Positions 13,434-15,746 of a stretch of 64,000 nt of DNA are shown here, one piece after another (the stretch's first letter is position 1; every line of letters starts with the position of its first letter). The stretch spans positions 434,001 to 498,000 of the forward strand of contig NZ_BMJH01000002.1 of assembly GCF_014643175.1 (NCBI RefSeq), given 5' to 3'. Origin of the DNA: Hoyosella rhizosphaerae (GTDB lineage: Bacteria > Actinomycetota > Actinomycetes > Mycobacteriales > Mycobacteriaceae). Below the pieces are notes generated by a model. It made no database searches, was not told where the DNA came from, and worked only from the letters and a program-made list of their open reading frames with translations. A program made the translations under genes and the position numbers.

Positions 13434-13721
13434 TTACGCGAGTGCTAGGAATAGCTTTTCGAGCTCGTCTTGGGACATGCGCCGTTTGCCATTCTCGTCC
13501 GTGTCGCCATCCTCGCCTTCGTTGGCGAGGCACTCGCGAAGGCTGGTGGCGACGATCTTGAACCCGGCGCGGTCGAGGGCGCTCGACACGGCTGCGAGTT
13601 GGGTGACAACATCACGGCAATCGCGCCCATTCTCAATCATGGAGATGACGCCAGCGAGTTGGCCGTGTGCTCGGCGTAGGCGGTTGAGGACCAGTGCGGC
13701 ATTGGGGTCCGTGGCGTCCAT
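13434..13721 (-). CDS. CsoR/CstR-family repressor, sulfur-sensor type
   Basis: A 95-residue all-helical DUF156 repressor. Cu(I)-sensing CsoR proteins use Cys-His-Cys; here the positions are C35 ([14 protein letters not shown]), S60 and C64 (SLRECL), so the copper-ligand histidine is missing. Two cysteines without the histidine is the pattern of CstR, which forms di- or polysulfide links with reactive sulfur. The neighbouring persulfide dioxygenase supports that reading. A CsoR-type operator (13758-13773) lies in its own promoter, predicting autorepression. The start is ATG 13721. The sulfur-sensing assignment is inference from residues and context. Confidence 0.85.
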
Positions 13722-13757
13722 GTAAATCTCCTCGATCTACTACTTCACTAATGCTGA

Positions 13758-13773
13758 ATACCCCCTAGGGTAC
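13758..13773. promoter_or_regulatory. CsoR/CstR-type operator 1
   Basis: TACCC-CCTA-GGGTA (13759-13772) in the repressor's own promoter, 38 bases before its start. It matches the two other sites at 13839 and 15731 in the TACC...GGTA core. Confidence 0.65.
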
Positions 13774-13838
13774 CCCGAATACGAGCGTGGGGCGAATGCG
13801 CCACTGTGATTATGTATCGATTTACCCCGACGGTTGAA

Positions 13839-13854
13839 ATACCCCTGGTGGTAT
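13839..13854. promoter_or_regulatory. CsoR/CstR-type operator 2
   Basis: ATACC-CCTGGT-GGTAT, perfect 5-bp arms, 79 bases before the DUF302 gene start and on the same spacer as operator 1. It is nearly identical to operator 3. Confidence 0.75.
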
Positions 13855-13932
13855 GTTGAGTGGTGGGTGTTGAATATCGCCCCACGCGAGAATCACCGGA
13901 AATCAACATCCCCAAAGTCATAAGGAGAGTTC

Positions 13933-14343
13933 ATGAAAATTGGAATCGCAACCGAGTTGACCACCACCTTTGACGATGCGGTAGAAAAAACTCGCACAGC
14001 CCTAGCTGATCAAGGCTTCGGCATTCTTACTGAGATTGACGTCAAGGCAACATTGAAGACGAAGATCGATAAGGACATAGAGAACTACCTCATCCTCGGT
14101 GCCTGTAATCCGCCCCTGGCGCACAGGGCAGTGACGGCCGACCCGCAAATTGGGCTGCTTTTGCCTTGTAACGTCGTCGTTCGTGACCACCGCGACAAGC
14201 CTGGAACGATTGTCGTTGAGGCCATGAACCCGGACGTCATGGTCGCAGTCACAGGGAAAGCTGAACTCGAATCTGTTGCGTGCGATGCGGGTATCAAGCT
14301 CAGGGCGGCAATTGATGCGCTCGGCGGTTCGCGAACAGACTGA
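13933..14343 (+). CDS. DUF302 protein of the sulfur regulon
   Basis: A 136-residue soluble protein of the DUF302 family, covering nearly the full length. Typical motifs are DDAVEKTRTALADQGFGILTEIDV (about 14-37), LILGACNPPLAHRA (about 54-67) and GLLLPCNVVVRD (about 74-85). It contains Cys at about 58 and 79, which could react with sulfur species. SD AAGGAGA precedes ATG 13933. It is divergent from the repressor and convergent with the persulfide dioxygenase gene, and has a CsoR/CstR-type operator upstream. DUF302 proteins have no firmly established reaction; context suggests binding or handling of reactive sulfur or metal. Confidence 0.88.
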   Translation: MKIGIATELTTTFDDAVEKTRTALADQGFGILTEIDVKATLKTKIDKDIENYLILGACNPPLAHRAVTADPQIGLLLPCNVVVRDHRDKPGTIVVEAMNPDVMVAVTGKAELESVACDAGIKLRAAIDALGGSRTD

Positions 14344-14356
14344 AACGCTGTTGCCC

Positions 14357-15697
14357 CTAGCTGACCTTGTGTGCGTTGGTGAACGCATCGTCGATCAACA
14401 CAATGTCGCGGCCGGGCCGGTCGAGCAGTGAGGCAGCGACCGAAGCGCGGTACCCAGATTCGCAGTGCACCCATACTTCTCCGGCTGGCACTTCGTCGCG
14501 TCGAGCGAGCAACTCGTGCAGTGGAATGTTGATAGAGCCTGGTACTGCACCTTTTTCATGTTCATCAGTTCTGCGAGTGTCGAGCACGGTGAACGCTCGG
14601 CTGGGGTGCTCGCTGGCGAGATCTGCGAAGGTGGCCACGCGATACTGGCGCAATGTTTCGCCGGGTCGCGCTAAGTCGACGACGTGCCCAACGGCCGCGC
14701 CCGTGATGTTGTCTACGCCAATGCGTGCAAGGTCGCGGCGCGCATCCATGACTTCGCTTCTTGAGGTTCCAACCAGGGTGATCGGCGAACCCCACGAGTA
14801 GAGCCACCCGAGGTATGTGACGAAGCTTGTCGACAGTTCGAAACCCATGCTCCCCGAGAGGTGTCCGGCGGCGAACGCTCGGCGCTGCCGAAGGTCAACG
14901 ACCCATTCGCCGTCGTTTATTCGCTTGCGGAGCGTGCTGGGGTCGACCTGTTCAGGCATCCTCAAATCAACCGGCTGCGGTCCCTCGGTGTTGATAACGC
15001 CCATGTGTGCGTAGTACGCCGGGAATTCGGCGAGTCCAGCGATGAGTTCGTCGACGAACGATTGCTCGTCCTTTGTAAGCGCTGGGTTGACCTCTTGTTG
15101 CTCTCCAATGGTTGAGGAATCCCCAGTGGTGGGAGTTGCGGAGCAGAAGCTACCAAATCCGTGGGTGGGGTAGACGGCCACAGTGGGTGGTAGCTCATCG
15201 GCAAGTTTGCGAACTGAGTGGAACTGCGCGTGGGTGAGTTCTGATGTGTGTTGAGACCCGAGTAGGTCGGTGCGCCCGGTGGATCCGTACAGCATTGATC
15301 CGCCTGTGAATACCGCCTCCGGCGCTCCGGTGTCGTTGTGAAGAACGAAGCTTAGGTGGTGGTGGGTGTGGCCGGGGGTGTGCATGGCTGTGATTCGCAT
15401 GGTGCCCACTTCGACGGTTTCGCCATCGGCAATCGGGCGGTGTTGGAACTTGACGTCATCGAGTGCGGAAACGATGTAGTCGGCACCTGTGACGCGGGCG
15501 AGTTCGAGCCCGCCGGTGACGTAATCGTTGTGGATGTGGGTTTCGAAGACGTGGGTGATGCGGACGCCGCGTTCTCCAGCGAGTGCGAGTGGGCGGTCGA
15601 CGTCGCGCTGTGGATCGATGACTGCTGCGACTTCGCCATCGTCGATGAGGTACGAGCGGTCGCCGAGGCTTGTGGTCTCAATTGTAGAGATGTTCAT
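14357..15697 (-). CDS. Persulfide dioxygenase-rhodanese fusion
   Basis: A 446-residue protein with an N-terminal metallo-β-lactamase domain of the ETHE1-like persulfide dioxygenase type (THIHNDYVTGG with H54, H56, D58; TPGHTHHH; PTHGFG). It is followed by two rhodanese modules. The first (WVVDLRQRRAFAAGH) lacks a catalytic cysteine; the second has the active loop CESGYRAS with Cys near 412. The pathway is oxidation of glutathione-, mycothiol- or other thiol-bound persulfide to sulfite, with sulfur transfer by the rhodanese. Start ATG 15697 is chosen because AAGGGA lies 6 bases upstream; the frame itself opens at 15718. An operator of the CsoR/CstR type (15731-15746) lies in its promoter. Confidence 0.9.
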   Translation of the reverse strand: MNISTIETTSLGDRSYLIDDGEVAAVIDPQRDVDRPLALAGERGVRITHVFETHIHNDYVTGGLELARVTGADYIVSALDDVKFQHRPIADGETVEVGTMRITAMHTPGHTHHHLSFVLHNDTGAPEAVFTGGSMLYGSTGRTDLLGSQHTSELTHAQFHSVRKLADELPPTVAVYPTHGFGSFCSATPTTGDSSTIGEQQEVNPALTKDEQSFVDELIAGLAEFPAYYAHMGVINTEGPQPVDLRMPEQVDPSTLRKRINDGEWVVDLRQRRAFAAGHLSGSMGFELSTSFVTYLGWLYSWGSPITLVGTSRSEVMDARRDLARIGVDNITGAAVGHVVDLARPGETLRQYRVATFADLASEHPSRAFTVLDTRRTDEHEKGAVPGSINIPLHELLARRDEVPAGEVWVHCESGYRASVAASLLDRPGRDIVLIDDAFTNAHKVS

Positions 15698-15730
15698 AGC
15701 TAGTCCCTTCCATCTCACCTCAGCCTATAT

Positions 15731-15746
15731 ATACCCCCGGTGGTAT
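15731..15746. promoter_or_regulatory. CsoR/CstR-type operator 3
   Basis: ATACC-CCCGGT-GGTAT, perfect 5-bp arms, 34 bases before the persulfide dioxygenase start, preceded by TATATA that may be part of the promoter. It shares the layout of operator 2. Confidence 0.75.

Follow-up and report, generated by a model that had tools for sequence, protein, structure and literature searches.

A probable persulfide regulon in Hoyosella rhizosphaerae, with one operator type ahead of genes for a DUF302 protein and a cysteine-rich miniprotein

The sulfane-sulfur repressor ScCsoR of Streptomyces coelicolor binds the operator ATACCn6GGTAT ahead of the gene for its persulfide dioxygenase; polysulfide modifies Cys37 of the repressor, Cys66 also being needed, and the DNA is released (PMC7533328; papers are cited by PubMed Central (PMC) number). 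The circuit also has a rhodanese and a sulfite transporter, and SCO0618 has been shown to be an active dioxygenase (PMC7533328). DUF302 has been described within sox clusters (PMC5037610), and a DUF302 gene resembling one from a Synechocystis sqr operon has also been reported (PMC5061849). Here, a stretch of 64,000 nucleotides from Hoyosella rhizosphaerae (the window; positions 434001-498000 of NZ_BMJH01000002.1, contig C2 in our numbering, from a genome of 3.54 Mb in 16 contigs with 58-59% GC) was analysed. Three genes, encoding a CsoR-type repressor, a DUF302 protein and a fusion of a metallo-beta-lactamase (MBL) domain with rhodanese (PDO1), are flanked in it by a MarR gene and a major facilitator superfamily (MFS) transporter gene. 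This locus probably represents the local portion of a regulon for persulfide (sulfane sulfur) under a repressor of the ScCsoR/CstR type.

The operator pattern ATACC-N6-GGTAT is exact at 13839 and 15731 of the window and has one mismatch at 13758, as an earlier note on this DNA had read it. When up to two mismatches were allowed, 19 matches were found in the window against 9.7 expected, a number reached in two of 100 shuffles, and at that tolerance the window alone is not decisive as evidence beyond chance. In the whole genome, the exact pattern exists in six copies and the reversed control in none. These six sites, on three contigs, belong to the genes for DUF302, PDO1, a TauE/SafE exporter (C3:435283; PF01925, 181.8 bits), a second MBL-rhodanese named PDO2 (two sites, C3:438424 and C3:438457), and a cysteine-rich miniprotein of 55 amino acids (C1:1590379, 29 bp ahead of an open frame with a Shine-Dalgarno-like AAGGAGG). 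The regulon is scattered, not compact. The earlier note had proposed a compact set of three promoters under one repressor and a motif search of the genome for further members; one operator type does stand at the repressor, DUF302 and MBL-rhodanese promoters, but the compactness is lost, as the search found exact sites at three more promoters on two other contigs. With one mismatch, the counts are near the control level (48 versus 31 for the reversed pattern), and mismatched sites thus weigh only by their position; the site at 13758 retains the core TACCCN4GGGTA. Of the one-mismatch sites, the C-rich ones at C2:695051 and C3:34769 were considered as further members but discarded, as they are inside or overlap open frames.

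The orthologous loci of all three congeners compared (G001-G003; loci L114, L115 and L116) carry the sites too; their absence there, which by the earlier note would have refuted its reading, was not seen. Three sites with zero or one mismatch lie between the CsoR gene and an MMPL transporter gene, which is followed by DUF302, and PDO1 is directly preceded by a one-mismatch site in each congener. The TauE, PDO2 and miniprotein genes of G002 and G003 have exact sites, as does the miniprotein gene of G001; the TauE and PDO2 sites of G001 were found through the TACCCN4GGGTA core. The window has no MMPL gene between the operator and DUF302, and the best MMPL match in its own genome is 32%, so that the operator stands directly ahead of DUF302; this is most simply explained by loss of the MMPL gene in this species. 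An MMPL transporter gene was also seen near DUF302 in other relatives.

The repressor is a member of the CsoR/DUF156 fold (PF02583, 82.6 bits for a cut-off of 22.8), and re-reading of the sequence bore out C35, C64 and, at the position of the copper-binding histidine, S60. It has two marks of the ScCsoR/CstR type, namely two cysteines at the CsoR positions with no copper histidine, and an operator ATACCn6GGTAT at sulfur-oxidation genes, and it lacks the Cys-His-Cys site of copper-sensing CsoR proteins. Both cysteines are kept in all 92 distinct homologous stretches of at least 44% identity, none of which has histidine at position 60 (G in 48, A in 35, S in six, N in two and T in one). The only other CsoR of the genome is 30% identical, has C44/H69/C73 and is adjacent to an open frame that looks like a P-type ATPase.

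Across genomes, the sites follow the repressor type. Among 61 genomes (this one and 60 relatives), the 40 with the repressor type contain 152 exact sites (mean 3.8; one or more in 36 genomes; control 9), versus eight (mean 0.38; one or more in six genomes; control 7) for the 21 without it (Mann-Whitney p = 4e-7, with phylogeny and genome size ignored). Weaker CsoR relatives, taken as the copper type on residues checked for the one in this genome and one other, are present in 39 genomes of the first group and 20 of the second; because they are about equally common in both groups, they do not explain the sites, and the tracking of site number with repressor type ties the operator to the persulfide-type repressor. 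In 20 stretches picked by hand, the genes lying within 170 bp of 23 exact sites include PDO2, TauE, CsoR, the miniprotein, single rhodaneses, a CoA-disulfide-reductase-rhodanese fusion, an AhpC-type peroxiredoxin and PIG-L deacetylases, a few sites having no clear target. The last three kinds were recorded in relatives at L240:2059-3795, L238:1893-2627, L243:2173-2961 and L248:1480-2106; a mycothiol link of the PIG-L deacetylases is possible.

The two MBL-rhodaneses differ at the metal site. Human ETHE1 binds iron through His79, His135 and Asp154 (PMC4383860). PDO1, for which the earlier note had used the label persulfide dioxygenase, keeps two of these ligands (H54 and H110, placed by motif alignment) and has Gly133 at the place of the aspartate, so that the label is doubtful. 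Glycine is found there in all 16 rows of the PDO1 clade (15 genes, one of them twice; 53-100% identity), whereas each of the 34 remaining MBL rows in that listing (about 30 genes) has aspartate. The full set of ligands is seen in PDO2, in all 12 aligned rows (its own included, with some genes in two stretches). From these residues, PDO1 more likely transfers sulfur, or is an enzyme whose metal site is of another kind, and PDO2 appears the likelier dioxygenase. PDO1 matches the structure 3r2u, CstB, the partner of CstR in Staphylococcus aureus, at 1.8e-47. PDO1 may nevertheless be a working persulfide dioxygenase whose metal site has changed, the extra histidine of an HTHHH or H/Y-T-H motif for example replacing the aspartate, in which case the label of the earlier note would hold; this seems rather unlikely. 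In its favour, the equivalents of the two iron histidines and the rhodanese Cys412 are conserved in all 16 clade rows, most of the 14 rows compared have an extra histidine adjoining the site, and PDO1 is near TauE in three plasmids. Against it stand the aspartate-to-glycine change throughout the clade, at a residue that coordinates iron in the human enzyme, and the presence of PDO2, an aspartate-bearing paralogue, under the same operator. The MBL-rhodaneses near these repressors fall into two classes, in one of which an iron ligand is missing and a dioxygenase annotation needs an assay.

The DUF302 protein of the window belongs to its family by profile (PF03625, 86.6 bits) and by fold, its model (pLDDT 91) matching 1j3m and 1q9u. 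Cys58 and Cys79 are invariant in all 34 aligned rows (with its own sequence counted twice), are also kept in both solved DUF302 proteins, TT1751 (1j3m) and APC35924 (1q9u), whose structure titles give no function, and lie in the model at the end of one strand and the start of the next. Of the 61 genomes, 32 have DUF302, and every one of these also has the repressor type (Fisher p = 3.5e-10, ignoring phylogeny). In a class sample of 98 genomes, 24 of the 27 with DUF302 have the repressor, and outside the order the repressor is present in 19 of 22 genomes with DUF302 versus 17 of 69 without it (p = 3.4e-7, likewise ignoring phylogeny). In 28 of 43 places the DUF302 gene is no more than 3 kb away from the repressor gene, and in one of 43 it is that close to a weaker CsoR relative; of 30 DUF302 loci with 1.5 kb on either side, 16 contain a site with at most one mismatch, and the control contains none. 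In the plasmids of R. jostii, M. adipatum and R. fascians, DUF302 adjoins CsoR, TauE and MBL genes on one strand. The link of DUF302 to the regulon is well supported computationally, and its placement within persulfide handling by the earlier note finds support of the same kind in operator, co-occurrence and context. DUF302 might instead be a passenger, such as a general thiol or metal stress protein sharing a divergent promoter, with the repressor and the MBL-rhodaneses alone forming the persulfide circuit. The family does exist in many other organisms, and a relative is found in a Synechocystis sulfide/arsenic cluster, but the co-occurrence with the repressor inside and outside the order, the gene neighbours on the three plasmids and the exact operator of its own here make this reading improbable. 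As a member of the persulfide regulon, the DUF302 protein may serve as a sulfane-sulfur relay. When the window DUF302 was used to scan viral contigs, 12 candidate stretches came up and none was confirmed, a single-protein query reaching close relatives only.

The most novel element, the miniprotein, lies outside the window. Its pattern is M-C2-x4-C7-x2-C10-x4-W15-x-G17-C18-G19-x-H21-x13-C35, and C2, C7, C10, C18, H21 and C35 are invariant in all 27 members gathered by protein similarity and in all 48 of a second set, in which the stretch TWxGCGxH was fixed by the search pattern itself. Over 38 codons within the genus, synonymous sites differ by 18-79% and non-synonymous sites by 0-4%, and the miniprotein thus is a real gene. 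A scan with one genome per species gave at least 591 pattern matches, of which at least 589 were confirmed; among the best 80, less one dropped for a short flank, an exact operator exists within 200 bp upstream in 36 of 79 (42 with at most one mismatch), and the reversed control in none. By the same measure, 13 of 30 miniproteins of the relatives have an exact operator and 16 one with at most one mismatch, with a control of 0, and a number of others adjoin CsoR, rhodanese or MBL genes, the site being further away. In R. jostii RHA1, the miniprotein corresponds to RHA1_RS51140, and an exact operator stands 44 bp ahead of its start. It is recognized in 35 of the 61 genomes, 34 of those with the repressor, and within 3 kb of the persulfide-type repressor in 27 of 49 places, versus one of 49 for a weaker (copper-like) CsoR.

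No significant family model was found for the miniprotein in Pfam (its own sequence and 48 members; best E 0.013), NCBIfam (its own sequence) or PHROGs (three miniproteins, searched together with the window DUF302, which also had no match), and four of its peptide strings had no match in the CC-licensed PMC literature. The term unannotated was given up for it: 38 of 40 listed plasmid records show no gene there, but the gene table is incomplete and the available part of PMC6305408 lists a small hypothetical protein. Six relatives with 39-60% identity were seen in IMG/VR contigs filed as viral (L229-L234). We suggest, tentatively and as somewhat less probable than its opposite, that the miniproteins are an uncatalogued family of about 50-60 amino acids with a predicted zinc-ribbon-like knuckle (C7-x2-C10 ... 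C18-x2-H21) and invariant C2, next to the start methionine, and C35, and that they might form with DUF302 and the MBL-rhodanese lacking the iron ligand a dedicated system for sulfane-sulfur storage and relay, beside the oxidation route and under a ScCsoR-type switch across Actinomycetota.

RicR and MymT are a precedent for a copper regulator with a metallothionein. A copper regulon, in which the repressor or the second CsoR would sense Cu(I) and the miniprotein would be a copper metallothionein, could draw on the richness of the miniprotein in cysteine, the C-H-C CsoR beside the P-type-ATPase-like frame, a one-mismatch site (C1:730315) about 230 bp ahead of that frame and the similar operators known for copper CsoR/RicR (PMC7533328), but was rejected as highly improbable on the histidine missing from every homologous stretch, on gene context (no exact site near the copper locus, and no linkage of the miniprotein to a copper regulator such as a copper metallothionein should have) and on sites that track the persulfide-type repressor and stay at the control level in genomes with weaker CsoR relatives only.

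In the persulfide regulon that we favour, the reduced repressor would bind the ATACC-N6-GGTAT sites 33-78 bp ahead of the start codons and, when bound, would block its own gene, DUF302 and PDO1, and elsewhere PDO2, TauE and the miniprotein. Persulfide or polysulfide would modify C35, with C64 assisting, and the repressor would leave the DNA. PDO2 would then oxidise low-molecular-weight persulfide to sulfite, which TauE would export. The rhodanese domains may move sulfane sulfur, PDO1 being more likely to transfer sulfur than to oxidise it, and the DUF302 protein, with its two invariant cysteines, and the miniprotein, with its invariant cysteines and histidine, would most likely act as carriers, stores or relays of sulfane sulfur. 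In short, this actinobacterium probably has one copper-blind repressor that switches scattered sulfur-detoxifying genes.

Several points weigh against this reading. DNA binding, the ligand and all of the enzyme roles are deduced from sites, genes, residues, conservation and co-occurrence, and the operators of copper CsoR/RicR are, as just said, similar in kind. The line that defines the repressor type was set by us between E-values of 1.0e-15 and 1.2e-14; four of the 40 genomes above it have no exact site and six of the 21 others have at least one, and some exact sites that lack the C-run are probably due to chance. The statistical tests do not take account of phylogeny and genome size. The core TACCCN4GGGTA exists in six, eight, seven and six copies in G000 (this genome) to G003, versus five, three, five and eight for its reversed control, and its weight lies in its places, not its counts. 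At position 11, the DUF302 and PDO1 sites have T, where G makes up 95% of the letters in 180 distinct exact sites from the fetched loci; the two exact window sites are good copies, off consensus. As for DUF302, three of the 27 genomes of the class sample are without the repressor at the threshold used, 15 of the 43 places are farther than 3 kb from it, 14 of the 30 loci have no site with zero or one mismatch within 1.5 kb, and Rhizobium, Phaeobacter and Haloarcula plasmids, too, commonly have members of the family. Finally, a consensus scan of 13400-15900 found no sigma-70-like promoter.

Table 1. Features of the locus and predicted members of the regulon on other contigs (window positions unless a contig or locus is named; G000 is this genome).
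Feature	Position	Strand	Details
CsoR/DUF156-family repressor, persulfide (ScCsoR/CstR) type	13434..13721	-	PF02583; C35/S60/C64
Operator ATACCCCCTAGGGTAC	13758..13773		1 mismatch; 36 bp ahead of repressor start; sequence re-read
Operator ATACCCCTGGTGGTAT	13839..13854		Exact; 78 bp ahead of DUF302 start codon; sequence re-read
DUF302 protein, 136 aa	13933..14343	+	PF03625; invariant C58 and C79
MBL-rhodanese fusion PDO1, 446 aa	14357..15697	-	PF00753 and PF00581; Gly133 at place of iron-ligand Asp; Cys412 kept
Operator ATACCCCCGGTGGTAT	15731..15746		Exact; 33 bp ahead of PDO1, 106 bp ahead of divergent MFS gene
MFS sugar-porter-like transporter	15853..17298	+	PF00083, 369 bits; divergent from PDO1
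PDO2, second MBL-rhodanese	C3:437027-438394		H56, H112, D136
Cys-rich miniprotein, 55 aa	L021:6183-6350 (G000:C1)	-	Operator C1:1590379-1590394, exact

The start of PDO1 most likely is the ATG ending at 15697, rather than the GTG at 15718. The MFS gene, which diverges from PDO1 with an operator between the two, is a possible member of the regulon, and as a neighbour it was confirmed by Pfam in one congener. No Rfam match was found within 12000-18000. Elsewhere in the window, 7172-9322 encodes a wax ester synthase/DGAT protein whose N-terminal stretch resembles ACT (23.8 bits, where the cut-off is 27), and 17335-20958 is an open frame of 1207 amino acids with no Pfam match at 0.001 and with short AEKSGAE-like repeats at the C-terminus.

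The repressor, the operator and the oxidation route are of the ScCsoR/CstR kind and already known. As far as searches of the CC-licensed PMC literature show, what is new is that DUF302 and the miniprotein have the operator in common, that the regulon extends over the genome, that site number is tied to repressor type, and that one clade has the aspartate-to-glycine change. The DUF302 family, whose function is unassigned despite solved structures, and the conserved miniprotein thereby gain a concrete regulatory home and become directly testable as persulfide-handling proteins. The link of DUF302 to sulfur is not wholly new, hints being in print (PMC6305408, PMC5037610, PMC5061849). In the SUL module on plasmids of Antarctic Arthrobacter, CsoR, a sulfur dioxygenase, rhodaneses, TauE, MFS, DUF302 and a 'small hypothetical protein' form one cluster, published in 2018 as a gene list and, in the part of the paper available, without an operator or regulon (PMC6305408); that stretch (L227) contains three exact operators and one miniprotein match. 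CstR of S. aureus is likewise a copper-blind persulfide sensor of the CsoR family controlling an MBL-rhodanese (PMC7533328, PMC10318464); it forms polysulfide links between its cysteines, whereas ScCsoR does not (PMC7533328), and the available portions of its descriptions (PMC7533328, PMC10318464) name neither DUF302 nor a miniprotein. TTHA1953 of Thermus thermophilus is also a cysteine-based regulator of sulfur genes from the CsoR family, which copper does not release under reducing conditions, but differs in its operator, TACNNTACNNNNGTANNGTA, and its Sox targets (PMC10318464). The ScCsoR circuit (SCO0618, SCO0620 and partners) is alike in the two-cysteine repressor (spacing 29 in both), the operator and the MBL-rhodanese, and also has a sulfite transporter and a rhodanese; unlike it, the H. 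rhizosphaerae regulon has DUF302 and the miniprotein with the operator, two MBL-rhodaneses, one of them without the iron aspartate, and genes on three contigs.

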